Origin: Candidatus Kutchimonas denitrificans
Lineage (GTDB): Bacteria; Gemmatimonadota; Gemmatimonadetes; Palauibacterales; KS3-K002
Length of the DNA stretch: 64,000 bases
Reading direction: 5' to 3'
NCBI GenBank assembly: GCA_011774835.1
Contig: JAACAK010000113.1
Span: 69,029-133,028, forward strand
How positions within the stretch are numbered: position 1 is the stretch's first letter; each line of letters opens with the position of its first letter. Below the pieces are notes generated by a model that saw only the letters and a program-made list of their open reading frames with translations, had not been told where the DNA came from and did not search any database. The translations under genes and the position numbers were made by a program. Positions 13,544-29,815 of this stretch are shown piece by piece.

Positions 13544-14377
13544 CTATGGCAATTCGACGAAGCCTCCCAGGAAATCTCGAGCTGAAGAAGTATCGAGCCG
13601 GTAGTCCCAACTGGTCGCTCGGCACGGGATGTCGCCCCAGTTCACGATGGCGTAAATCTTGTCTCTGTCACCCTTCAGAAACTTGGGCGACCCGGAGTCG
13701 CCAAAGCAATCGCCACCTTCGTCCGTCGCGTGGCTGTTCATGAGCAGGCCGAGCGTCGACTGCGTGAGCCCCATGAACGGGGATTCCGAGACCTTTCGCT
13801 TTCCGTCGACAGAGAAACTCAGCGGACCGTCGGCGCTCGCCGCGGCCCCGTAGCCCACGTTCACGAACAACTGACCGATGAGACCTCCCCGACGCGCCAG
13901 GCGATCCAGCTCGCCGGCTTCTGGCAACTCGAGGGGGTCGATGCCATCTGTTGCCCCGACCGGTAACAGCACGACCCCGATATCGTGGGAATCACCGAAG
14001 TCGCGACCGAATTGCGGATCGAACGCGAAGCCACCCGCCTGGATCAGGCCCGACACACCATCTGACAGGTCCGGGTCGAAAGACACCCAAAACTGCGCAT
14101 CCCCGGGGAAAAACGCGAGACAGTGCGCCGCAGTCAAGAACACGTTCTCGGCGATCAGGCTGCCCGAGCACCAGAGGTCGGAAACACTGATCCCGTCGTC
14201 GTCAAAGTCGAAGAGCAGCGCGCCGACGTTGCCATAATCCGGACCAGTAGGTTCGCCCTGGTTGATGAACTGAGGGCCGAGGTTCTGCGGCGGACCAGGC
14301 GGTCCGTTCGGCTCACTGCAACCAAACGATAACGCCACCGAAATGAGTAAAGCGGTGACAGCCCTGATGGTACGCAT
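13544..14377 (-). CDS. Trypsin-like serine protease lipoprotein (S1 family)
   Basis: Lipobox-like ALSFGC; LTAAHC, SHDIGVVLL and GDSGSP triad motifs. Confidence 0.85.
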   Translation of the reverse strand: MRTIRAVTALLISVALSFGCSEPNGPPGPPQNLGPQFINQGEPTGPDYGNVGALLFDFDDDGISVSDLWCSGSLIAENVFLTAAHCLAFFPGDAQFWVSFDPDLSDGVSGLIQAGGFAFDPQFGRDFGDSHDIGVVLLPVGATDGIDPLELPEAGELDRLARRGGLIGQLFVNVGYGAAASADGPLSFSVDGKRKVSESPFMGLTQSTLGLLMNSHATDEGGDCFGDSGSPKFLKGDRDKIYAIVNWGDIPCRATSWDYRLDTSSARDFLGGFVELP

Positions 14378-15103
14378 GGCTTACTCTCCTTGCTGAATCG
14401 GAGCGGCGCCGTCGAACCTCCACGGCCCCGACGCATCGAATGTTGCGGAAACGATTGGATTAAGGATTACAGGTCTATCTGCCAGAGACCGCTCTGGACA
14501 TCGTGCCCGAAGAAGACCGTCTAGAATTGTGTGTGGTGTACAAACCGCCGAAACTTAACATGATCGAGGCGATCGAGCGAATGCCCGGCGTGGAACGCGA
14601 CCGCCTTTATCATTGGCGCGCCGCTGGCCGATTTCGGAGCCATCGGCAACAACGGAGGCGCTGCACGACCAGTAAACGGCTGCCTCACCTTACTTCCGTT
14701 CGCTGTGCCCGGAACGGAGGAAACCCAATAGAGAATCGAGCATCGGCGGAGGCCTCCTCGGGCCGACGCGGTAGGCCTGGGACGGCTCCGGGTTGGTTTG
14801 CCTAAGGTCGCCTCGGGCCGCATATTTGCACGCAGGACGCCGGGGGTTGCCGATCGGTCCCGGCTTGTCGGCCCCACTAGCCATCGAACGGAGCAGCACG
14901 AACCCGGTGTCTGCTGACCCATGGTTGCCTGACAGTTCATGGATATGCGTAACGGCGCGGTTGACGCAGAAGGTCGGCCAGAGTCGAGTTGCTGCGCTAG
15001 GCGACGCCGTCTTGTAGCTCCGATGCTTCCGTTGGGCAGAGATGGTGAGGCCCCGGGGTACGGGCCGCCCGGAAGAGGATGTTCTATTCGCGCGGGGGGT
15101 AAG

Positions 15104-16315
15104 ATGAAAGTCGCGAACTCGTTCGTTGGAATGGGAAGAGGGTTCAGCACGTTCGCCTTTTCCCTCTTGGTTATCGCCGGTCTCGTCATGCCCGTTTCAC
15201 TCACCGCGCAGGAGCGTGATGTCACCCAGAACCCGCTGGCCGGTTCGCAGGTCTTTGGATCGAAGGGGTGCGTGAAGTGCCACGCGATCAATGGGTTGGG
15301 GGCCGAGATCGGCCCTGACCTGGGGCGGATCTCGCAGCGGCATTCGTTCTACGAGCTGGCGGCGACGATGTGGAACCATCTGCCGGCGATGGGCGCGGCG
15401 ATGCGGGAGTATGGGATCGAGCGGCCGGAACTGACGGCGGAGGAGGCGGGCGACCTGATCGCGTTCCTGTTCACCCTTGACTATTTCGACCCGCCCGGTG
15501 ATGTGGAGAGAGGCAAGCGGCTGTTCGTGGAGAAGAAGTGCGTCGTCTGCCACCAGGTCGGTACCTACGGCGGCGTCGTCGGACCCAGCCTCGACCATCT
15601 CAGCCAGTACGGCTCCCCGATCCTCGTGGCGGCGGCGATGTGGAACCACGGTCCGGCGATGGCAGAGATGATGGAGGAGCGGGGGATCGACCGTCCCACC
15701 TTCAGCGGAACCGAGCTCAACGATCTCATCGCTTATCTCGAGTCGGTGGGCCCGGCCCCGCTGGAAGGTCCGCTCTACGTCCTGCCGGGCGCGGCCGAGG
15801 AGGGGCGGGTGGTGTTTGTGGAGAAGAACTGCATAGAGTGTCACTCGGTGCAGGGTGTGGGAGGAAGGGTAGGACCGGACCTGGCGAAGCGGAGCTATCA
15901 GTGGGGGCTCACCGAATTCGCTGCCGCGATGTGGAACAAAGCCCCCGACATGATGCAGGTGATGCGCCAGCGAGACATCGATGTCCCGCAGCTGGGCGCG
16001 GGCGAGATGGCGGACCTGGTGGCTTACCTGTACTCGGTCCAGTACTTCGCCGAATCCGGGGATGCCGAAGAAGGGCGCGTGGCCCTGCGCACCCGGGGAT
16101 GCCTGGCCTGTCATTCTCTGGGCGGCCGGGGCGCCGGGGAGACGTCCGATCTGCAGGGCAACTTCCAGATGGAATCCTCGGCTGAGGTGATCGCCACGCT
16201 CTGGAACCATGCGACGCTGATGGAGGGTGAGGGCGCTGAGCCGTGGCCGATTTTGACCGCTAAGGACATCGCGGACATCTCGGCGTTCATGCAGAAGAAC
16301 GCGGAAGATCGATGA
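15104..16315 (+). CDS. Tetraheme protein of four tandem class I-like cytochrome c domains
   Basis: Signal peptide; CVKCH, CVVCH, CIECH and CLACH each followed by an MWNHxPxM-like repeat. Confidence 0.88.
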   Translation: MKVANSFVGMGRGFSTFAFSLLVIAGLVMPVSLTAQERDVTQNPLAGSQVFGSKGCVKCHAINGLGAEIGPDLGRISQRHSFYELAATMWNHLPAMGAAMREYGIERPELTAEEAGDLIAFLFTLDYFDPPGDVERGKRLFVEKKCVVCHQVGTYGGVVGPSLDHLSQYGSPILVAAAMWNHGPAMAEMMEERGIDRPTFSGTELNDLIAYLESVGPAPLEGPLYVLPGAAEEGRVVFVEKNCIECHSVQGVGGRVGPDLAKRSYQWGLTEFAAAMWNKAPDMMQVMRQRDIDVPQLGAGEMADLVAYLYSVQYFAESGDAEEGRVALRTRGCLACHSLGGRGAGETSDLQGNFQMESSAEVIATLWNHATLMEGEGAEPWPILTAKDIADISAFMQKNAEDR

Positions 16316-17619
16316 TGATGACGATGGGAAAACTGCTTCGCTGCACACCCGCCCTGCTCGCCGGATTCCTGTTGGCCCCAAAAGCAACGGCTCAGGAGCC
16401 CGAGAGCAGCTGCGTGACCTGCCACGCCGCGTTCGGTGATGAGCGTCTGTCCGGGCCCGTCGAGAGCTACCCGAACGATGTCCACGCTGCCCAGGGGTTC
16501 GACTGCGTGGCTTGCCACGGCGGTGATGCGACGGTGGCGGGGATGGGCGCGATGGACCCGGCGGCCGGATACCTGGGCGTGCCCGAAGGCGAGGACGTGC
16601 TGTCGGTCTGTGGGCGTTGCCACTCGAGCGCGCAGTTCATGCGCCGCTACGATCCGTCGCTGCGTGTGGACCAGGTGGCCGAGTACCGGACCTCGGTCCA
16701 CGGCCAGCGACTGCTTCAGCAGGGAGACGATCGCGTGGCCACCTGCTCCAGCTGCCATCCGGCACACGCGATCAAACCGCCCAGCGATCCGAACTCGAGC
16801 GTTCACCCGCTCAACGTCGCGGCGACCTGTGCGGACTGCCACGCCAATCCCGAGTACATGTCGCCCTATCCCATACCCACCGACCAGCACGAGAAGTACC
16901 TGGAGAGCATCCACTGGGAGAAGCTGTCGGTGGCCCGCGACCTGTCGGCGCCGACCTGCAACGATTGTCACGGCAACCACGGGGCGGCGCCGCCCGGGGT
17001 CTCTTGGGTCGGCAACGTCTGCGGTCAGTGTCACTCGGTCATGGCGGAGCGATTCAACCAGAGCTTCCACTCACGCATCTTCGCAATGCTCGGCAACCCC
17101 GGCTGCGCGACATGCCACAACAACCACGAGATCAAGCTCGCGGATATCGAGATGCTGGGTGTGGATGAGGGCTCGGTCTGCGGTCGCTGTCATTCGGCGG
17201 AGAGCCGAGGCGGTATAGTGGCGACCCGCATGAGAACGCTGATCGATTCGCTCTCCTTGGCGCGCGAGCGGGCCGATTCGATTCTCGAGCGCGCCGAGAA
17301 CGCAGGCATGGAGGTCAGCCAGGCCCAGTTCGACCTGAACGGTGCGACCACGGCCCTGGTCAGTGCCCGAACCGCCGTCCACTCCTTCGACGTGGAAGGG
17401 GTCCGTGAAGAGGTCGAGTCGGGACTGGAGGTTGCGGCGCAGGCCTGGGAGCGCGGTCAGGAGGCGATGGACGACCTGAGGTTCCGTCGGACCGGCCTGG
17501 CGATATCGGTGGGGATCATCGTGCTGCTGATCATCGGGCTGGTGCTCAAGATCAGGCAGCTCGAGCCGGCCGGAGCAGGGCCGTCGCGCAAGAGTGCTCC
17601 AGGAGGGGAGGCACGATGA
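16312..17619 (+). CDS. Nine-heme c-type cytochrome with C-terminal TM anchor
   Basis: Nine CXXCH motifs (CVTCH, CVACH, CGRCH, CSSCH, CADCH, CNDCH, CGQCH, CATCH, CGRCH), signal peptide, TM near C-terminus. Confidence 0.9.
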   Translation: MMMTMGKLLRCTPALLAGFLLAPKATAQEPESSCVTCHAAFGDERLSGPVESYPNDVHAAQGFDCVACHGGDATVAGMGAMDPAAGYLGVPEGEDVLSVCGRCHSSAQFMRRYDPSLRVDQVAEYRTSVHGQRLLQQGDDRVATCSSCHPAHAIKPPSDPNSSVHPLNVAATCADCHANPEYMSPYPIPTDQHEKYLESIHWEKLSVARDLSAPTCNDCHGNHGAAPPGVSWVGNVCGQCHSVMAERFNQSFHSRIFAMLGNPGCATCHNNHEIKLADIEMLGVDEGSVCGRCHSAESRGGIVATRMRTLIDSLSLARERADSILERAENAGMEVSQAQFDLNGATTALVSARTAVHSFDVEGVREEVESGLEVAAQAWERGQEAMDDLRFRRTGLAISVGIIVLLIIGLVLKIRQLEPAGAGPSRKSAPGGEAR

Positions 17620-18071
17620 TGGAGAGGGGCGGCAGGAACGAACAAACGCGTCGAGGCTTCGTCAACTGGATACTGGGCACGGGCGTCGGCGGCCTGCTGC
17701 TGGCCGTGCTCTATCCCGTCGGCCGTTATCTCGTGCCGCCGGCGGCGGGCGAGTCGGCGGCGGCGTCGGTCACGCTGGATATCACGCCGGCCGAGGTCAC
17801 GCCGAATTCGGGTCATATCTTCAAGTTCGGCAGCCGACCGGCGATCCTGATCCGCACGCCCAGCGGGGAGCTGCGGGCGTTTTCGGCCGCCTGCACGCAC
17901 CTCGGCTGCATCGTCCAGTACCGCGAAGACATCGGCCACATCTGGTGTGCCTGTCACAACGGACACTTCGATCTCAACGGCCGAAACATACAGGGTCCGC
18001 CGCCCCGGCCGCTCGATTCGTTCGTCGTCAACGTGCGCGGCGACGAGATCGTCGTCAGCAAGACGAGTTGA
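17616..18071 (+). CDS. Rieske [2Fe-2S] protein of bc-type complex (module A)
   Basis: N-terminal TM anchor; CTHLGC and CACHNGH cluster-binding boxes. Confidence 0.93.
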   Translation: MMERGGRNEQTRRGFVNWILGTGVGGLLLAVLYPVGRYLVPPAAGESAAASVTLDITPAEVTPNSGHIFKFGSRPAILIRTPSGELRAFSAACTHLGCIVQYREDIGHIWCACHNGHFDLNGRNIQGPPPRPLDSFVVNVRGDEIVVSKTS

Positions 18072-18074
18072 GCG

Positions 18075-19172
18075 ATGAGCGACATCAAAAAGCGGCTCGG
18101 GGAGGTGTGGGGCTGGCTCGACGATCGCCTGGGGCTGTCAAGCTGGGGCGAGCTTGCACGCAAGAAGGATGTGCCGTTACACAAGCACACCGTCTGGTAC
18201 TATCTGGGCGGCATGACGCTGTTCCTGTTCTTGATTCAGGTCGCCACCGGGATTCTGCTTCTTTTCTACTACCGTCCCAGCGCCGAGGACGCCTACGAGT
18301 CGATCCAGTTCCTGATGGCGGAGGTGGAGTTCGGCTGGCTGATCCGCTCGATCCACGCCTGGGCGGCCAACCTGATGATCTTCACGGCGTTCCTCCACCT
18401 GTTCAGCGTCCTGTTGATGAAGGCGTATCGGGCGCCGCGGGAGATCACCTGGATCTCGGGCTTCATGCTCCTCGCGCTCGCCATGGGGTTCGGGTTCACC
18501 GGCTACCTGCTCCCCTGGAACGAGCTGGCGTACTTCGCCACCCGGGTCGGCACCGAGATCATGGGGGCGGTGCCTCTCGTGGGCAGCTTTTTGGGCCGGG
18601 TGCTCAAGGGCGGCGAGGACGTGTCGGGTGCGACCTTGACGCGCTTCTACGCGATCCACGTCGCGGTGTTGCCGATGATCACCGCGGCTCTGCTGGGCCT
18701 CCATCTCTATCTGGTTCAGAAGCACGGGATGAGTATTCCGCCCGAGGTGGAGCGCCGAGGCGGCGGCCGTCGCTCGATGAGCTTCGCCCCGAATTTCCTG
18801 CTCCGCGATCTGGTCGGCTGGCTCTCGGCGCTGGCGATCATCGCGGTCCTGGCGGCGTATTTCCCCGCCGAGCTGGGGGAGAAGGCGGATCCGTTCGCAC
18901 CGGCGCCGGCCGGAATCAAGCCGGAGTGGTACTTCATGTTCATGTTCCAGACGCTGAAGTACCTGCCGGCTCACATCCTGGGGATCGAAGGGGAGGCGCT
19001 GGGGATCATGGCGTTCATGGTCGGCGGCGCTTTGCTGATGATCGTCCCGTTCCTGGATCGACGTTCGGGCCGGAACCAGCCGAGCCCGTTGTTCACCTGG
19101 ATCGGAGTGGCGATCATCGTCTACATCATAGTGCTCACGATCCTGGGCTACGCGGCGAACCCCACGCAATAG
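18075..19172 (+). CDS. Cytochrome b of bc-type complex (module A)
   Basis: Heme-b histidine pairs spaced 14 and 15 residues (b6-type), GYLLPW, and intact PEWY Qo-site motif. Confidence 0.93.
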
Positions 19173-19199
19173 AGCTCGCGACGATAGACCCGGATGCGA

Positions 19200-19235
19200 A
19201 ACGCCGCCGCGTGGCGCCTGGCCCGCGGCGGCGTT
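19200..19235. terminator. 12-bp perfect stem between convergent modules A and B, putative shared terminator
   Basis: AACGCCGCCGCG (19200-19211) and CGCGGCGGCGTT (19224-19235); no clear U-tract. Confidence 0.4.
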
Positions 19236-19259
19236 GGCGTGCTGCGCCGTTCCTGTCCT

Positions 19260-20486
19260 CTACCGCAGCGGCACCGCCCCGGTCACCGCACCGCTGTCGT
19301 CTTCCGCCCGTGGCAGCTTCGCTTCTGCCTCCGGCCACGGGGGCAGGATCTTCACCAGCACCCAGAGGATCACGAACGGCAAAATCAGGAGCGCAGCCGC
19401 CGCCAGCAGCCCCTCGACCCCAAAGAGCTCCAGCTTGTACACCGTCAGGCCGCGCAGGCTCTTCGAGAACAGCTGGCCGCCGATCACCACGTTCCAGCGG
19501 ATGCTGAAGATCCCGATCTGCACGAGTATGGCGGAGCCCAGGTAGATCAGCCGCTTCAGCTCGTCCGGTAGCTTCACGGCGCTTCGTTTGCTCAGCGCCG
19601 GTGCGGTGAGCCCCAGGGTGATCATCGGCAACAGCGTGCCGAGCGCGACCTGCAGTACGATCAGGCTGATGAACAGCCGGCTCTCGATCATCTGCGAAAG
19701 GATCTCGATCGACTCCTCGGACTCGTAGAGCCGGTGGATGAAGTCGAGCATCTCGAGGGAGAAGTCCACCACCATCGCGTAGAACAGAAAGGCGGCCAGC
19801 TTGTCGACGCATTTCATGTCGACCGGCTTCCAGCGCAGCATGGCGGAGACCATGTAGATGATCAGAACCAGTGCGATCCCCGAGACGATGGCCGAGAACA
19901 GGAACACGACCGGCATCAGCACGCTGCTCCACCACGGGTTCGCCTTGACCGAGCCGAAGATGAAGCCGACGTAGCCGTGGAGCAGGAAGGCGGACGGGAT
20001 GCCGATGATCGTGATCCAGCGGCCCATGCGCTCGTCGAAGCTCAGCGCCCGCGGCGAGAGGTCCGTGGCTCCCAGGGTGAGTGCATAATGGATCCACCGT
20101 GTCAGGCCTTTCTCCTGACGAGCCCACAGCACGAGGTCCTTGCGGTAGTCGAACCAGATCTCCAGCAGCAGCACCACCATCAGGTACCAGGCGTAGACGA
20201 AGCCGAACATCGCCATCGCCGACTGCCGGTTCGGCGTCAGGAAGATCTCGTACGAGCGGAGCGGGTGGCCGAGGTGAGCCAGGAGCGGCAGGGGCGCCAC
20301 GAGCAGGAACGCGAGCGCCGTGAGCAGGGCCAGCCGGTAGGTGGGCTGGACCTCCTTGACGTTGAACACGCGCTCGAGCGATGCGAGGATGAAGGCGCCC
20401 GCCACGAGACCGGTGACGTACGGATAAACGACGACCAGGATGCTCCAGTGGAGCTCGAACTCGTTGGGGTAGATGTACCCTTGCAT
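19260..20486 (-). CDS. NrfD/PsrC-like quinone-interacting membrane subunit
   Basis: About 10 TM segments; YVTGLVAGAFILASL, HLGHPLRSYEIF and SPRALSFDERMGRW typical of the NrfD family. Confidence 0.88.
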   Translation of the reverse strand: MQGYIYPNEFELHWSILVVVYPYVTGLVAGAFILASLERVFNVKEVQPTYRLALLTALAFLLVAPLPLLAHLGHPLRSYEIFLTPNRQSAMAMFGFVYAWYLMVVLLLEIWFDYRKDLVLWARQEKGLTRWIHYALTLGATDLSPRALSFDERMGRWITIIGIPSAFLLHGYVGFIFGSVKANPWWSSVLMPVVFLFSAIVSGIALVLIIYMVSAMLRWKPVDMKCVDKLAAFLFYAMVVDFSLEMLDFIHRLYESEESIEILSQMIESRLFISLIVLQVALGTLLPMITLGLTAPALSKRSAVKLPDELKRLIYLGSAILVQIGIFSIRWNVVIGGQLFSKSLRGLTVYKLELFGVEGLLAAAALLILPFVILWVLVKILPPWPEAEAKLPRAEDDSGAVTGAVPLR

Positions 20487-20489
20487 CGG

Positions 20490-21293
20490 CTACCTCACCT
20501 CGCCGTCGAGATTGGCGTAGTAGGCCTTGGGCTCCGTGTTCAGGTGCGGCTTGAGCACCTGGACTTCGTTGAATCGCATGAAGCGGGCTAGCGGCGTGGC
20601 CCGGCGCTCGACTTCGCCGAAGATGCGGGCGCCGGTCGGACAGACCTCGACGCAGGCCGGCACCAATCCCTCGACGATGCGGTGGTAGCAGAACGTGCAC
20701 TTCGCCGCGACGTGCTTTTCCGGGTCCAGCCAGCGGGCGCCGTACGGACAGGCCTGGATGCAGTAGCGGCAGCCGATGCAGTACTCGTCGTCGACCAGCA
20801 CCACGCCGTCCTCGGTCTTGAAGGTGGCGCCGACCGGGCAGACCTGAACGCAGGGCGGGTTGGCGCAGTGGTTGCACAGCTTCGGCACGAAGAAGCTTCT
20901 GCGTATGTCGCCCTCGGCCGTAGTCGGAGGAAATCCCTCCATGCCGCCGTTGGGACTGTCGACCTCGACCTCGCCGTCGGTTCGAATCAGGTAACGCTCG
21001 ACCCAGGTGTTGAAGAAGTAGGGCTCGTCGGGTACGTCGTTCTCGGTCCCGCAGGCGACCACGCACTGACCGCAGCCGATGCACTTGTCGACGTCGATGC
21101 CCATGGCGTAGAAGTGCTCGCTGGGGTCGTAGTCGTCGCCCTCGGACTCCTGCGCATTCAGCAGCGGCACGCGGACGACACCCAGGATGATCGGCGCCAG
21201 AAGGCTGCAAGCCTTGAGAAACTCGCGGCGGTCGACCTCTTGCGTCGGTCGGGTCGATTCTTCTCGCGCCGGGTCGCGCTCGCTCGGGTTCAT
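20490..21293 (-). CDS. Ferredoxin-like Fe-S subunit with four [4Fe-4S] motifs (NrfC/PsrB-like)
   Basis: CIGCGQCVVAC, CNHCANPPCVQVCPVGA, CIGCRYCIQACPYGA and CTFC...CVEVCPTGAR; N-terminal RREFLK Tat-like motif. ATG at 21293 chosen. Confidence 0.9.
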   Translation of the reverse strand: MNPSERDPAREESTRPTQEVDRREFLKACSLLAPIILGVVRVPLLNAQESEGDDYDPSEHFYAMGIDVDKCIGCGQCVVACGTENDVPDEPYFFNTWVERYLIRTDGEVEVDSPNGGMEGFPPTTAEGDIRRSFFVPKLCNHCANPPCVQVCPVGATFKTEDGVVLVDDEYCIGCRYCIQACPYGARWLDPEKHVAAKCTFCYHRIVEGLVPACVEVCPTGARIFGEVERRATPLARFMRFNEVQVLKPHLNTEPKAYYANLDGEVR

Positions 21294-22051
21294 GGGGTCT
21301 CCGGGTAGTGTGGGTAGTGACACTGCCAGCACACGTAGCGCGGGTTGTGCAGGCGCAGGTTTATCCTCGGAATGTGCGGCGGGCTGTCGGCATCCCGGGC
21401 ATGACATCCGCCGCAGAAGCTTCGCTCGGTCGGCTTCGTCGGACGGACCAGACGCGGCGTGACCTTGTGCTCCTCGGGCGCCTCGTGACACGTCGTGCAC
21501 TCCAGCCCCGCGTGATGCGAAACCGCCTTCTGGCGAGCGATCTGACCGTGGCAGGCGCTGCACTGGCCGGGGATGACCGGCGGCTCGGGCGCGTGCGGGT
21601 CGTGACAGTTCGAGCAGAAGGACATGGGATTGTGCCGCACCGGATCGATCTGCGGGAAGCCGGTGGGTCGCGAGGGCGAGTACTCATGACACCGCAGGCA
21701 GAACTCTCGCTCGCTGGGAATCGATGGCTTTATCTGAGCCGGATCGGATACGTGCGTCGCCGCCGGGCCGTGACAGGATTCGCAGCCAACCCCCTTATGG
21801 TTGCCCGCCAGCCGTTTCTGCATGATCTGGAAGTGGCAGAGCTGGCATGCCTGCTGACCGGCGTACTTCTTCTCGTGGGCGACGATCGTGTCGAGCGCCG
21901 CGGCCCGATAATGTCCGAGTTGCCCGAACGTGTCCGGAACCAGAAAGTACCGCGCCACGAGAAGTCCGATGATGGCGACGGCGAAGACAGCCACCAGTCG
22001 GGGGACTTGCTGGGGCACGCGGGTGCCCCGGAACGGATCGAATTTCGCCAT
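21290..22051 (-). CDS. Octaheme c-type cytochrome, N-terminally anchored
   Basis: Eight CXXCH motifs (CQLCH, CESCH, CLRCH, CSNCH, CSACH, CTTCH, CGGCH, CWQCH); N-terminal TM; overlaps Fe-S gene by 4 nt. Confidence 0.9.
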   Translation of the reverse strand: MAKFDPFRGTRVPQQVPRLVAVFAVAIIGLLVARYFLVPDTFGQLGHYRAAALDTIVAHEKKYAGQQACQLCHFQIMQKRLAGNHKGVGCESCHGPAATHVSDPAQIKPSIPSEREFCLRCHEYSPSRPTGFPQIDPVRHNPMSFCSNCHDPHAPEPPVIPGQCSACHGQIARQKAVSHHAGLECTTCHEAPEEHKVTPRLVRPTKPTERSFCGGCHARDADSPPHIPRINLRLHNPRYVCWQCHYPHYPETP

Positions 22052-22325
22052 CGGCGTGACCGGTCTGTGGTGGAACGGCGTCCGCCGGAGGCGGACGCTT
22101 CGACCAGGGTCAGCGGGGCAAGAAGGATGCCATGCGACTCAATCGTATCGCCTTGCTGGGCTTCGAGTTACAGCGTCGGCAGCGTTCGATCGATCGCGCA
22201 GCGATACTCGGCTCGGCGAGTTTCCCCGTTTTGTAGCGAAATGTCCCCGGCATCAGGTCGAGCCCGGGTCCCTGGTCGGAACGATTCTCAGAACTCCCAA
22301 AAAGAGCGAGGGATGGCGGACCGGA

Positions 22326-24347
22326 CTACTCGCCCAGCGCGGGGATGTCCCGATGGCAGAGAACGCAGTTCGCCGGTGCGTTGTGCTCCACCATGTCGGC
22401 GTGGCAAACCAGACAAACCTCCCGGGTCCAGTTCTCGATCCAGGCCGCCCGATCCTGGTGGCAGATGGTGCACCCGTTGTGAGCCATCGGCGGGTGTTTG
22501 TCTCTCACGCCGCCGCGATGGCACGAGAGGCAGGAGTTGTCGGGCTGGTGGTGCAGCGTGTGACACATCTGGCAGCGGTCGGCGCTGACGCTCATGTCGG
22601 GCGACGAGTGGCAGAGTGAACAGTCGAGGCCCGCCTCGCGATGCGGGGTGTGGGGGAAGTCGGCCATGGCGGTGGCCACCGGCCGTGCCGGCGCGCCGGC
22701 GGGTCCCTCGTGACAGGCCGAGCAGTCGGCCTCCGCCGAGCGGTGGTGGCACGCGGTGCAGCTTGCGGTGCCGGTCAGAGTGGTTTCGCCGTGCTGGTCG
22801 AGCGGCGTGTGGCACGCGGTGCACTCGAGCCCGGCGCCCTGGACGTGGGGTGCGTGGTCGAACGAGACGCCGGCGAAGCGTCCCGCCTGGTCGCTGATCC
22901 CCACATGGCACTGCAGACAGACGTTGCGACCCACCGGCGGCCCCAGCGCCACCGCGGGGATGTCGTACGGGAGCTGTCCGGTCTGGACCGCGTCGCGGAC
23001 CAGCTCGAGCGAGGTGCGCAGCAGCTGGTCGGCGTAGGCGATGTTATGAGCACCCTTCCCGCGCTGAACGAAGTCGACGTTCTCGGCGGCGAGCCGGAGG
23101 AGACTGTCGGCGGTGGCGCGACCCGCGACCGGGGCGGAGCCGAGGGTGGCACGGGCCGAGCTGACAACCTGGTCCACCTGCTCTACCTTGCGCTCGATCT
23201 CTCGCTGCCAGGCTGGGAGGATGTTGGCGTAGCGAATTCCGTGACACGACATGCAGGTCGCCTCGCCCGCCTTCATGACCTCCTCGTGTCCGGGGATCTG
23301 TGTCGGGATGGCGTGACAACTCTGGCAGGAGACTCGAGCGAGGAACATGGAGCTCGGCATGTTCTCGGTGCCGTGGCCGCCCATCCCCGAGTACATCTGC
23401 CGCTGCTCATCGTGGACGCGCTGGTGACAGGCGGCGCAGTCCAGCTCGAACGTCTCGGCCAGTGAAACGACGCGATGCAGGATCGGAGTATGGCACTGGG
23501 TGCATTCGACGTTGTGCTCGGCGATGTGCACCCGGTGCACGAAGGTGGTGTTCTCGAATTGGTCGATCCGCTCCGGCTCGTTGTGGCAATTGAAACAACG
23601 TCGCTGTCCCGCCTCGCCCGTACCGCTGGTGACCGATTCGTGGCATCCCACGCACGATACCAGGTTCTCCACGTATTGCGGATGATCGACCACGAAGCCG
23701 GCCGGCGAGCGGAAGCGCGGCGGCGACTTGTGGCAGCCGACGCAGCCGGCGAGCGGCTGGCCGGGGGGCCGGTCCTTGAAGTGGCACAGGTAGCAGGTGA
23801 CCGCGGTGACACGCAGGTGCGCAGCACCGATTGACACCCCTTGGAAGACAAGGGACTCGCTTCCCTGTACGATCTGGGAGTGACAGCTGGTGCAGCGGAG
23901 CCGCTTTCCGCGCCGCAGCTCTCCCAGATGCTGAGAGTGGTCGAAGCGAATGCCCTCGTAGTTGACCTGGCCTTCCAGCTCGCGTTCGGTGTGGCATCCG
24001 GAGCGCAGGCAGGCGGCGTCCTCGATCTCGGCCCACGGCTTCGTCCCGTAGGCGCCGGTGACGTATTTGACGACCTGGTTGGCGGCCTGGAGCTTGCCCA
24101 TCGCCTCGGCCTTGATCCCCGGCGCGTAGTGGCAGCTGATGCACTTCACGTCGTTGTGGGACGACGTTTTCCAGGAATCGTAGTAGGGCTGCATGATATG
24201 ACAGTTAGTACAGAAGCTTGGTTGAGCGCTGTACTCGATGAACCCTACCGTGGTGACGGCGAGCAGGATCACCGCCAGGATAGCGACCTGGATCGTGATC
24301 TTGATCGGGCGCGAGAAACGATCGAGGAAACCGGTCAGGCGCTGCAT
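22326..24347 (-). CDS. Large multiheme c-type cytochrome with NapC/NirT-like N-terminus
   Basis: 21 CXXCH motifs plus one CX4CH (CLRSGCH); N-terminal TM followed by CTNCH...CISCH as in NapC/NirT. Confidence 0.92.
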   Translation of the reverse strand: MQRLTGFLDRFSRPIKITIQVAILAVILLAVTTVGFIEYSAQPSFCTNCHIMQPYYDSWKTSSHNDVKCISCHYAPGIKAEAMGKLQAANQVVKYVTGAYGTKPWAEIEDAACLRSGCHTERELEGQVNYEGIRFDHSQHLGELRRGKRLRCTSCHSQIVQGSESLVFQGVSIGAAHLRVTAVTCYLCHFKDRPPGQPLAGCVGCHKSPPRFRSPAGFVVDHPQYVENLVSCVGCHESVTSGTGEAGQRRCFNCHNEPERIDQFENTTFVHRVHIAEHNVECTQCHTPILHRVVSLAETFELDCAACHQRVHDEQRQMYSGMGGHGTENMPSSMFLARVSCQSCHAIPTQIPGHEEVMKAGEATCMSCHGIRYANILPAWQREIERKVEQVDQVVSSARATLGSAPVAGRATADSLLRLAAENVDFVQRGKGAHNIAYADQLLRTSLELVRDAVQTGQLPYDIPAVALGPPVGRNVCLQCHVGISDQAGRFAGVSFDHAPHVQGAGLECTACHTPLDQHGETTLTGTASCTACHHRSAEADCSACHEGPAGAPARPVATAMADFPHTPHREAGLDCSLCHSSPDMSVSADRCQMCHTLHHQPDNSCLSCHRGGVRDKHPPMAHNGCTICHQDRAAWIENWTREVCLVCHADMVEHNAPANCVLCHRDIPALGE

Positions 24348-24351
24348 GCCG

Positions 24352-25614
24352 CTACTGCCCCTCTGCCGTGGCGGACCTCTCGGACCCGCGCAGCTTGAAC
24401 CAGGCGAGCACGCCGGCGGAGAGAGCCAGGAACCAGACGGGCACGAGGATCAGCCTGTGCTCCCAGCGGTGCTCGGCCGCGACCTCGGCGGAGGAGCGAA
24501 TGTCGAGCGAGATCGAGGCGACCTCGCGCCGCAGGTCGTCGAGCGCGGTCAGGTCCAGGCTGTGCTGGGTCTGCGAGACCTGCATGAAGGCGGTCAGGGC
24601 GCTCTGGTATCGGAGACGCGCGTCGGACACGTCACGGCCGGCGCTTACGAGCTCGTCGATCGCTTCGGCGGCGCTGCGCAGTTCCTCGGCGGCGCGGGTG
24701 GCCTTCTCCTCGATCTCGATTCCGATGCCAGCGGCCTCGCTGCCCGCCTCGTGGCACTCGGTGCAGGTCTCGGCGATGCGGTCCGGGGGGATGACCTCGG
24801 TTCCATGGTTCGAGTGACAGGCCGTGCAGCCGGACAGCTTGGCGGCGCGGGCAGCGGTGCCGTGGGGGCCGACGTCGAACGCTTCGCGCACCCGCACGTG
24901 GCACTGGCCGCAGACGTTGGCGATCTGGGCGACCGCGGGCGGCAACGCGGAATGTGATCCGTGACAGCCGACGCAGGTCGGTGCGGCGAAGTTGTGCTTT
25001 TCGTAAAGGGCCACGCCGTGCGCGCTCGATCGGTAGGTGTCGAACTGGTCGGTGGGCAGACCATAACCCGCCATGAGCGACTCGTCCTCGTGACAGGTGG
25101 CGCAGGTGCCCGCGATGTTGGTCGGGTAGACGTTGCTGCGAGCGTCGGTCGGCCGCAGGATCGTATGCGCGTCGTGGCAGTCGGTGCAGGTGGGCGCGTT
25201 CAGGTCGCCGCGATCGAGGAGCAGCATGCCATGCCGGCTCGTCCGATATTCGGCCAGCTCGCCGGCCGGCAGCCCGTACTGGCGCATCTGGTCGGGATCG
25301 GCATGGCAGTCGGTGCAAAGCTCGACCGTCTGCAGCTTGTCGGGCGAGCCGATGTAGTCGACTGCCCTGTGGGCGCTCTCCACCTCGAAGCCCCGCGGGT
25401 CACCGCCGTGGCAATCCTCGCAATGGATGCCGCGATCGGAATGGACACCGAGCCGGAAGGCGCGGCGCTTGTCGATGTGGCAGACGACGCAGCTGTAGTC
25501 CCGCTCGATCTCTAACTCACGCTGCTGCGCGTCGGTGGTCTGCGCCGTTACCCACCGGGGGTTGGCGCCGGCCATCAGCAGCAGGCCGGGGATCAGGGTC
25601 AACTTGAAGTTCAA
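24352..25614 (-). CDS. Nine-heme c-type cytochrome, paralog of the 16312 gene (module B)
   Basis: Nine CXXCH motifs and C-terminal TM; aligns with the 16312 product (YRTSxHG, APTCxxCHGxH, NVCGQCH). TTG start at 25614 overlaps the upstream stop (TTGA). Confidence 0.85.
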   Translation of the reverse strand: MNFKLTLIPGLLLMAGANPRWVTAQTTDAQQRELEIERDYSCVVCHIDKRRAFRLGVHSDRGIHCEDCHGGDPRGFEVESAHRAVDYIGSPDKLQTVELCTDCHADPDQMRQYGLPAGELAEYRTSRHGMLLLDRGDLNAPTCTDCHDAHTILRPTDARSNVYPTNIAGTCATCHEDESLMAGYGLPTDQFDTYRSSAHGVALYEKHNFAAPTCVGCHGSHSALPPAVAQIANVCGQCHVRVREAFDVGPHGTAARAAKLSGCTACHSNHGTEVIPPDRIAETCTECHEAGSEAAGIGIEIEEKATRAAEELRSAAEAIDELVSAGRDVSDARLRYQSALTAFMQVSQTQHSLDLTALDDLRREVASISLDIRSSAEVAAEHRWEHRLILVPVWFLALSAGVLAWFKLRGSERSATAEGQ

Positions 25615-26870
25615 GGCCCGCCCTCTCCTTCGTCGCCTTGCGGCGCGTCCTCGGTTTCCGGTGGGGCGGCCGGTCCCGGCTCCTCTGTGACCGACTCGAT
25701 CCCGCTCCCGGGGCGCAGCTGAGTGCCGGGTGGAAGCGACCGCAGTTGTCTCCCCGCCAGCCAGGCGATCAGGAATCCGCCGAAGAAGACGACGCCGAGG
25801 ATCAGGATCACCGGCCGGCGTTTTAGGCGCCGCTCCGGCCGTCGATCGAAGAGCGGCAGCAGCGCCATGCTGAGTCCCAACACTGTGAAGATCGTGAATC
25901 CCCATACCCCCAGATATCGGATTAGTGCCAGGGATACGTCGACCACGATCCAGGTCGAGACCAGCTCCTCGGGCAGCATGAACGGGTCGGCCCGGTCGCC
26001 GGTGGGGCGCGGGAAGAGCGCCGCCAGGCTGATCGCCACGGCGAGCACGAGCACGCCGACGATGAACGATCGCAGCAGGTGGGTGGGGTAGAACCGGACC
26101 CCGTCACCGGCCGTGGGAGGGCCGTCGGTGGGCGGTGCGATCCCGTGCCGGCGCACCAGGGAGAAGTGGAACAGCAGCAGGGCCAGCGCCATCCACGGAA
26201 GTATGATCACGTGCACCGCGAAAAACCGGCTCAAGGTGGCGCCGGAGACGTTGACGTCGCCGCGCAGCACGTCGGCAACGATGGCGAGAATCGGGATCCG
26301 CGACACCACGTCGAGCACTTCGGTCACGGTCCAGTAAGCCCACTGGTCCCAGGGGAGCAGGTAACCCGTTGCGCCGAAAGCGAGTACGACCAGGAGCAGC
26401 AGCAAACCGACAAGCCAGTTGGTCTCGCGGGGGGGCTTGTAAGTACCGGTGAAGAAGACCCGGGCCATGTGCGCGAGGAGCGCCACGACGATCAGGTTCG
26501 CCGACCAGACGTGGAGGTCACGAACCAGCCAGCCCATCGGCACGTCGGTAACGATGTACTGGATGCTCGGGTAGGCCTCCTGGACCGAAGGCCGGTAATA
26601 GAAGGACAGCAGGACCCCGGTGACGATCAGGACGATGAAGAGCAGGTAGGTGATGCCCCCCAGCGCGTGGCGCCAGCCCACGTACGACGGCAACCGCCGG
26701 GCCAGAGACTTCCGCAGCGACTGGTCGATCGGCAGGCGGCGATCGATCGGTCCGTAGATGAGTCCGAGGAACCGGGCGATGCCCAGCAGCCCGGGGTCGG
26801 TGCTGGCTTTGATGTCTTCCCAGAGCTGGGTCAACCAGCTGAATCGCGGCTTCTTCCTGGAGTCTCTCAC
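25611..26870 (-). CDS. Cytochrome b-like subunit lacking PEWY (module B)
   Basis: Heme-b His pairs at spacings 14 and 15 retained, GYLLPW retained; PEWY position is TWIV in a gapless alignment anchored on ADPF and KYL/RYL. Confidence 0.92.
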   Translation of the reverse strand: MRDSRKKPRFSWLTQLWEDIKASTDPGLLGIARFLGLIYGPIDRRLPIDQSLRKSLARRLPSYVGWRHALGGITYLLFIVLIVTGVLLSFYYRPSVQEAYPSIQYIVTDVPMGWLVRDLHVWSANLIVVALLAHMARVFFTGTYKPPRETNWLVGLLLLLVVLAFGATGYLLPWDQWAYWTVTEVLDVVSRIPILAIVADVLRGDVNVSGATLSRFFAVHVIILPWMALALLLFHFSLVRRHGIAPPTDGPPTAGDGVRFYPTHLLRSFIVGVLVLAVAISLAALFPRPTGDRADPFMLPEELVSTWIVVDVSLALIRYLGVWGFTIFTVLGLSMALLPLFDRRPERRLKRRPVILILGVVFFGGFLIAWLAGRQLRSLPPGTQLRPGSGIESVTEEPGPAAPPETEDAPQGDEGEGGP

Positions 26871-27319
26871 CTTACCTCATCCGATACGTAGACGACCCCA
26901 TTGCGCACCGAGACCGCGTAGCGGGTGAGTGATTGGGTCGACAGGCCGGCCACGACATCGCCGCGCAAATCGTACTCCGCGTAGCCGCAGGGCGAAAAGA
27001 CCCGCAGGCTCTCCTGGTCCCACTGCAGCAGGCAGCCGTCGACGGGCGACACACCTTCCAAGGCGAAGTAGCGCGTCGAGTCCGGCCGGATCACCAGAAT
27101 GATCCGTTCGCCCCAGGAGCGGTTGCGGGTCGCACCCACCGGAAAATTGGACTCGCGCTCTACCCGGATCACCGGCTGCAACTCCGGGATGGCGAGGCGC
27201 TCGGAAGGGGCGACATACAGCGCGGCCGCCAGCGCCGTCAGGGTGATGATCAGAAGAAGCACGCCGCCGAGCAGAAGCTCGGTGAACCCCGGCCGCCTGG
27301 TCGTTCGCTCTCTCACCAT
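26867..27319 (-). CDS. Degenerate Rieske-fold protein without [2Fe-2S] ligands (module B)
   Basis: Gapless alignment with the module A Rieske: CTHLGC to SPVDGC, CACH to SPCG; N-terminal TM; sits upstream of and overlaps cytochrome b by 4 nt, the usual Rieske position. Confidence 0.82.
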   Translation of the reverse strand: MVRERTTRRPGFTELLLGGVLLLIITLTALAAALYVAPSERLAIPELQPVIRVERESNFPVGATRNRSWGERIILVIRPDSTRYFALEGVSPVDGCLLQWDQESLRVFSPCGYAEYDLRGDVVAGLSTQSLTRYAVSVRNGVVYVSDEVR

Positions 27320-28819: not shown

Positions 28820-29815
28820 ATGGGTTTTCTGGAAAAGATCTTTGGCCCTTCACGGCCCGATAGCGTACAGGATTCCTCTGCTGTAATGGCGAGCGAGGAT
28901 CTGGAGCGCATCGAGCGTGAACTAAAGAAGATCGGCCACGGCTACGAGGCTGCCCGTCTGCTGAACCGGGCCGGGGACCTTTACCTGGTGAAGGGCGACC
29001 GCCAGAAAGCATTGCAGCGGTACGGCGACGCCATCGACGCCTACCTGAAGTCGAGCGAGTACGACAACGCCATGGCGGTTTGCCGTAAGATCATCCGGGT
29101 CGTGCCGGAGGTGATCCGCACGCGCCGGACCCTGGCGTGGCTGTGCCTGGGGAAGGGCTTCCTCGAGATCGCGCGGGAACACATCGACGCGTATGTGAAG
29201 GCGTCGATCGAGGCGGAGTTGGAGGAGCTCGCCGTTCAGCACCTACTCCTCATGTCGCAGTACGTCGATCGCTCCGATTTCCGCCGTTTCCTAGGTGACA
29301 AGCTCGCCGAGCTCGGCGACGAGGAAAGCGCCGAGCGCGTGCGCAAAGGCGGAGCCCGCGAGAATGTCCGGGCCGCCGGCTGGACACCCGTCGTCTTCGC
29401 CGCAATGCTGACTCCGGAGGATCTCCGCCGGGCGGCGGACAAAGGGGTCGAGATCAAGGCGCCGACCGATGATCTGGCCGGCGACGAGCTGGACGTGGAG
29501 GGGTTCGATTCCCTCCTGTTCGACCCCGAGATCGCCGGGCCCGCCAAGGGGCGAGAGAGCGCCCCTGAGGAGTCGGAGGATGCGGACGAAGGGGAAGAGG
29601 CGGAGCAGGAGCGCGAAAAGGAAACCATGAAGGCGCAGGGGAAGGAGAAAGAGGAGGAAGAAGAAGAGGAGGAGGAAGAAGAAGAGGAGGAGACAGACGA
29701 CGACGAGGACGAGAGCGAGGAGGAAGAGGAAGAGAAGAAAGAAGAAGACGAGGGTGACGTAGACGACGAGGACGAAGAAGGCGAGAACGACGAAGAAGAC
29801 GAGAAGGAGAAATAA
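28820..29815 (+). CDS. TPR-like repeat protein with very acidic low-complexity C-terminal tail
   Basis: N-terminal helical repeats (YEAARLLNRAGDLYLVKGDRQKALQRYGDAIDAYLKS); ~80-residue Glu/Asp tail. Confidence 0.8.
   Translation: MGFLEKIFGPSRPDSVQDSSAVMASEDLERIERELKKIGHGYEAARLLNRAGDLYLVKGDRQKALQRYGDAIDAYLKSSEYDNAMAVCRKIIRVVPEVIRTRRTLAWLCLGKGFLEIAREHIDAYVKASIEAELEELAVQHLLLMSQYVDRSDFRRFLGDKLAELGDEESAERVRKGGARENVRAAGWTPVVFAAMLTPEDLRRAADKGVEIKAPTDDLAGDELDVEGFDSLLFDPEIAGPAKGRESAPEESEDADEGEEAEQEREKETMKAQGKEKEEEEEEEEEEEEEETDDDEDESEEEEEEKKEEDEGDVDDEDEEGENDEEDEKEK

Follow-up and report, generated by a model that had tools for sequence, protein, structure and literature searches.

We analyzed a 64,000-nucleotide stretch of contig JAACAK010000113.1 from Candidatus Kutchimonas denitrificans (Gemmatimonadota), hereafter the window, and found that it encodes a Rieske-like protein in which all ligands of the [2Fe-2S] cluster are replaced. 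We consider it probable that this protein, here called the pseudo-Rieske, descends from the Rieske proteins of b6f/bc complexes, binds no [2Fe-2S] cluster and serves as a structural subunit of a non-bifurcating quinone:multiheme-cytochrome oxidoreductase. The absence of the cluster, and of quinol-oxidation site (Qo) activity and a Q-cycle in its complex, is strongly indicated; a structural or docking role, a fixed head domain and either direction of electron flow are only weakly suggested. The operon of the pseudo-Rieske is termed module B, and a complete Rieske complex in the same window, whose cytochrome b keeps the Qo motif PEWY, is termed module A and served as an internal control. The pseudo-Rieske and the control Rieske have the following features.

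26867 to 27319, minus strand: pseudo-Rieske, 150 amino acids, an N-terminal membrane anchor followed by a ligand-less Rieske domain (from translation and homology)
27212 to 27277, minus strand: transmembrane anchor at the N terminus of the pseudo-Rieske (LLLGGVLLLIITLTALAAALYV), strongly hydrophobic, with no preceding RRxF twin-arginine translocation (Tat) motif
27032 to 27049, minus strand: former cluster box 1, residues 91-96, SPVDGC where the module A Rieske has CTHLGC (Ser for Cys and Val for His, with the disulfide Cys retained)
26984 to 26995, minus strand: former cluster box 2, residues 109-112, SPCG instead of CxCH (Ser for Cys and Gly for His, with the disulfide Cys retained)
26936 to 26947, minus strand: GLST instead of GPPP/GPAP at the site of the former proline loop
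17616 to 18071, plus strand: module A Rieske with all ligands (CTHLGC...CACHNGHF), internal control

The pseudo-Rieske open reading frame runs from an ATG at 27319 to 26867 and translates through 150 codons with no internal stop; its stop overlaps the GTG start of the cytochrome b gene by 4 nucleotides (26870-26867). The ligand positions that read C/H/C/H in the module A Rieske read S/V/S/G, and Cys96 and Cys111 align to the two disulfide cysteines, a pair that forms a structural disulfide in ordinary bc-type Rieskes. A preliminary description had noted an intact frame overlapping cytochrome b, an N-terminal anchor, a gapless alignment with the module A Rieske across the cluster boxes, and replacement of all four ligands with both disulfide cysteines kept. 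All of this held in our analysis: BLASTP aligned the two proteins at 25% identity over 79 amino acids (E value 7e-9), the codons for SPVDGC and SPCG lie exactly at 27049-27032 and 26995-26984, and the same pattern of ligands and cysteines recurs in all 31 non-redundant orthologs.

Profile comparisons suggest that the pseudo-Rieske adopts a Rieske fold. At E < 0.01, a profile of 18 orthologs matched fifteen different PDB sequences, each of a Rieske protein; the best match was the b6f-type Rieske 8hn2 (E 1e-12). When aligned to eleven true Rieskes with hhalign, the family gave a probability of 99.6% and an E value of 3e-24 over 146 columns, and the anchor lay within the aligned region. The expectation of a matching fold was thus borne out at the level of sequence profiles, which found only bc/b6f-type Rieske structures in PDB.

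A search of 100 relatives recovered 17 orthologs with 43-70% identity, which were clearly separated from ordinary Rieskes by their E values (at most 1e-37 versus at least 1e-8). Among 395 Gemmatimonadota genomes, 26 carry the pseudo-Rieske at E < 1e-40, and one further genome carries a fragment. The named records recovered from a second collection are all Gemmatimonadota metagenome-assembled genomes (MAGs), some labelled groundwater, except for one distant locus (L097). No relatives were found in viral contigs or in plasmids. The ligands are kept in none of the 31 non-redundant copies and both disulfide cysteines in all of them, and no intermediates between Rieske and pseudo-Rieske were seen within Gemmatimonadota. 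The Ser-Pro-Cys of box 2 is invariant, as are Asp94, Ser109, Tyr116 and Gly125 around the old cluster site, and the alignment holds 19 invariant columns in total; one copy (L085) reads DDC where the others have DGC. The preliminary description had asked whether Ser/Val/Ser/Gly and the two cysteines are conserved, and the answer is mixed: both cysteines and the Ser-Pro-Cys box are fixed, but the Val and Gly at the former histidine positions vary freely (V/A/F/I/T/S/L and G/R/N/T/S/D/Q, respectively). Close pairs of pseudo-Rieskes gave ratios of nonsynonymous to synonymous substitution rates (dN/dS) of 0.10-0.33, indicating purifying selection; this figure was taken from close pairs, and the mean pN/pS over all pairs, which was spoiled by two out-of-frame entries, was not used.

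Loss of the ligands is accompanied by other changes in the same protein. The GP of the proline loop over the cluster is found in 0 of 31 pseudo-Rieskes versus 49 of 53 cluster-bearing Rieskes, and a twin-arginine motif precedes the anchor in 1 of 31 versus 51 of 55 true Rieskes. Moreover, the anchors of the pseudo-Rieskes are more hydrophobic, with a mean Kyte-Doolittle hydropathy of 2.60 versus 1.75. By the time Tat exports them, Rieske domains are already folded and carry their cluster, and low hydrophobicity is a known trait of Tat-dependent anchors (PMC5449189). The simplest reading is that export of the pseudo-Rieske has switched from Tat to Sec, because no cofactor would need loading in the cytoplasm.

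The partner subunit has changed as well, as seen against the cytochrome b of module A.

25611 to 26870, minus strand: cytochrome b, 419 amino acids, GTG start, four heme histidines, no heme c_n cysteine
25947 to 25958, minus strand: STWI where the Qo motif PEWY would be
18075 to 19172, plus strand: module A cytochrome b with PEWY, internal control

The module B cytochromes b have all four heme histidines (19 of 19), sufficient for two bis-His hemes, and they lack the heme c_n cysteine. Neither the Glu nor the Tyr of PEWY is found in any of the 19; 18 of them have S/T-S/T-W-I/V/L at this site, and the deepest member (L132) shows no recognisable motif, whereas PEWY is kept in 6 of 6 module A cytochromes b. 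Orthologs of the pseudo-Rieske adjoin these PEWY-less cytochromes b. Joint loss of the Rieske cluster and the Qo motif is what would be expected if bifurcation had been abandoned. In a phylogenetic tree, the partner cytochromes b form one clade with full support; therefore, the counts above describe one well-preserved transition and not independent events. Overall, the suggestion that redox function was lost under selection while the fold was retained is supported by the missing ligands, the dN/dS values and the Rieske-only profile matches, and it is further matched by the loss of the proline loop, the Tat signal and PEWY. Loss of redox function is nevertheless a deduction from sequence.

Downstream of cytochrome b, module B in the window continues with five genes.

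24352 to 25602, minus strand: MHC1, a periplasmic 9-heme cytochrome c with a C-terminal hydrophobic segment
22326 to 24347, minus strand: 673-amino-acid protein in which an N-terminal NapC/NrfH-type domain resembling quinol dehydrogenases is joined to a multiheme wire; 21 CxxCH motifs in all
21290 to 22051, minus strand: 8-heme cytochrome c, in the operon of the window and near relatives but not in all module B clusters
20490 to 21293, minus strand: 4Fe-4S protein of the NrfC/TtrB/DsrO type, in the same operon in the window, variable elsewhere
19260 to 20486, minus strand: NrfD-type membrane quinone subunit, in the same operon in the window, variable elsewhere

The order pseudo-Rieske, cytochrome b, 9-heme cytochrome and NapC/NrfH-type cytochrome holds at nearly all loci with a long enough contig, and the last of these proteins usually has 21 CxxCH motifs; the 8-heme cytochrome, 4Fe-4S protein and NrfD follow next in the window and its family. 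The 21-heme protein has an N-terminal anchor and matches PF03264 with 37.4 bits (cut-off 24.1); it scores 57.6 bits against the NrfH model, which is under the equivalog cut-off of 134.2. The start of MHC1 is uncertain (TTG at 25602 or 25614), and its frame is open to 25905. Modules A and B stand tail to tail (14939-27319), each with its own paralogous 9-heme cytochrome, which suggests that an ancient duplication gave rise to two specialised modules. With an MHC1 profile, module B orthologs (at least 533 bits, full length), which were found in genomes that carry the pseudo-Rieske, stand apart from module A paralogs (at most 325 bits). Two MHC1 frames are irregular, possibly through assembly errors: one match contains an in-frame TAG (L148, G029), and one frame beside cytochrome b shows two hemes only (L174, G016). 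In other genomes, 11-heme and 19-heme cytochromes lie downstream of module B, with 19-heme proteins near it in several. One of them (L088, 16870-19887) is a protein of about 1000 amino acids with 19 CxxCH motifs and a C-terminal cytochrome b561-type domain, an arrangement resembling CbcL. Elsewhere in the window, positions 28820-29815 encode a 331-amino-acid protein with a very long Glu/Asp-rich C-terminal tail, a homolog of which occurs close to module B in several members of the family, and a trypsin-family protein (13544-14377) adjoins module A.

Related operons were found in another phylum. One (L129, G602) has the same operon with an intact Rieske (CTHAEC...CPCH) and PEWY. In a second (L131, 6863-7294, G403), the Rieske reads CTHDGC...CPCD, so that three ligands are kept and the second His is replaced by Asp; its proline loop is lost, its Tat signal is kept, and its partner subunit IV has PQWY for PEWY. 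This is the only Rieske found in G403, a state seen in a single MAG, and it possibly reflects either a cluster with Asp as a ligand or a cluster in the early course of being lost. The heme c_n cysteine is present in both of these operons. At a third locus (L172, 8260-11936, G487), MHC1 stands beside a 26-heme NapC-type cytochrome, flanked by hemA, hemD and radical SAM genes similar to those around the L131 operon; neither a cytochrome b nor a Rieske was detected in the G487 genome, which, being a draft, makes this weak evidence. Therefore, MHC1 and the NapC-type multiheme cytochrome can apparently work without bifurcation. In the MHC1 tree, L129, L131 and L172 join module B (100/98), and L131 pairs with L172 (100/96). 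We considered L131 as an intermediate toward the pseudo-Rieskes and rejected this, since the tree unites it with L172 and L129 in a clade of their own; it is therefore a parallel case and not an ancestor. The heme pair, which L129 shows with a functional-looking Rieske/cytochrome b, appears to have lost that function in at least two ways, with the scaffold kept in Gemmatimonadota and the machinery eroded, perhaps removed, in the other phylum.

Based on these data, we propose a putative mechanism for module B. The pseudo-Rieske, a cytochrome b with hemes bL and bH and a dead Qo motif, the 9-heme MHC1 and the NapC/NrfH-type 21-heme cytochrome would form a remodelled complex in which no quinol bifurcation takes place at Qo. 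Single electrons would instead pass directly between the periplasmic heme wire and either the hemes of cytochrome b or a P-side quinol site belonging to the NapC domain. The pseudo-Rieske head would stabilise cytochrome b and dock MHC1. A conserved, proline-containing linker (consensus IPELQPA) replaces the variable hinge and suggests that the head is held in place rather than mobile. Electron flow could run either way, by export from menaquinol to low-potential acceptors or by inward uptake that reduces quinone. If quinone reacts at an N-side site, redox-loop reasoning implies that energy would be conserved by inward flow but consumed by outward flow. Tentatively, as a plausible extension, we also suggest that module B is a reversible transmembrane quinone:multiheme conduit derived from a bc complex, which retains the Rieske as a scaffold only and uses the NapC-type quinol site, and that Qo and Rieske eroded in parallel in the second phylum (L131, L172).

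Several points weigh against a structural, non-bifurcating role. Both fold and function are read from sequence, and the union of four gene products in one complex is deduced from the operon. The correlated losses are one evolutionary transition in one clade and not 31, there are two candidates for the quinone-reacting subunit (cytochrome b and the NapC domain), and an unusual Qo chemistry may operate without PEWY. Finally, the invariant cysteine pair could form a redox-active disulfide. A pseudo-Rieske in which a Cys96-Cys111 dithiol/disulfide gates or senses electron flow would agree with the retention of both cysteines in 31 of 31 copies while the rest of the cluster site changed, and with the invariance of the Ser-Pro-Cys box. 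However, the stability conferred by the structural disulfide of ordinary bc-type Rieskes would explain this retention by itself, and we regard the redox-active alternative as unlikely. More improbable still is another cofactor in the old cluster site, such as a mononuclear metal, a heme or a quinone. The four invariant residues around the site would fit this, but no new conserved Cys or His has appeared at the ligand positions, two of which vary freely, and loss of the Tat signal speaks against cofactor loading in the cytoplasm.

NirD, the small subunit of assimilatory nitrite reductase, is a ligand-less Rieske-fold protein that is kept as a non-redox subunit, and like it the pseudo-Rieske is a Rieske domain without cluster ligands. 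Recruitment of a NirD-type protein into the operon would fit the best Pfam match, the NirD-like Rieske_2, although at 25.9 bits this falls just below the cut-off of 27, with no match to PF00355. NCBIfam instead favors b6f Rieske models (25.5 bits) over NirD (TIGR02378, 13.5 bits, cut-off 74.65), and the PDB matches are all true Rieskes with no NirD among them. In addition, the place before cytochrome b, the N-terminal anchor and the disulfide cysteines are bc-type features, whereas NirD is soluble, cytoplasmic and the partner of a siroheme enzyme. We rejected NirD membership on the Pfam, NCBIfam and PDB-profile scores and consider such an origin very improbable. Least credible of all is a decaying or mis-assembled gene heading for loss: every catalytic ligand is gone and the host's draft genome comprises 149 contigs, but intact frames occur in 26 of 395 genomes, with dN/dS well below 1, the invariant columns and a fixed operon position. 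Decay or sequencing error was excluded by ortholog conservation and dN/dS, and the absence of any ortholog with cluster ligands is consistent with this.

The non-bifurcating complex proposed here shares features with several known systems. Like PetC/QcrA, the b6f/bc Rieskes, the pseudo-Rieske has an N-terminal anchor, a Rieske fold by profile, the disulfide cysteines and a gene directly before cytochrome b; unlike them, it lacks the ligands, the proline loop and the Tat signal, and its partner lacks PEWY. The Geobacter ext cluster (ExtMNOPQ) encodes a Rieske, a cytochrome b and 10- and 12-heme cytochromes (PMC2825233, PMC5877670), and it similarly sets Rieske/cytochrome b genes next to several multiheme cytochromes. 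Its function is unproven, its heme counts and partners differ, and the likeness is one of gene content. The available parts of two reports describe NapC-type ImcH and b-type CbcL and CbcBA as inner-membrane quinol:cytochrome oxidoreductases of Geobacter, with CbcBA working near -0.2 V and reverse operation proposed in syntrophic sulfate reducers (PMC12307469, PMC10553843). Compared by these descriptions, they too join a b-type or NapC-type quinone module to multiheme c, but the same parts mention no Rieske-derived subunit. The anammox bacterium Kuenenia has unusual complexes of Rieske and cytochrome b that include additional redox subunits, but the Rieskes in them carry [2Fe-2S] clusters whose potentials have been measured (PMC12954380). 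Ligand-less Rieske folds, as in NirD, and Rieske/cytochrome b genes beside multiheme cytochromes, as in the ext cluster, are thus already known. We found no description of a ligand-less Rieske beside cytochrome b in the literature searched, which is weak evidence of novelty because most subscription papers lay outside its scope.

In Rieske/cytochrome b complexes, the Rieske cluster and the Qo glutamate are regarded as a core whose two parts cannot be separated. In module B both have been lost together while both subunits stay under selection, and near relatives have the operon in intact and in half-eroded form. The pattern SPxDGC...SPC, followed by a cytochrome b with S[ST]W, is a sequence marker that guards against annotation of such operons as a functional complex III. 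The family therefore offers a natural experiment on the roles of the Rieske subunit beyond electron transfer and on how a bifurcating enzyme may become a simple link from quinone to a heme wire.
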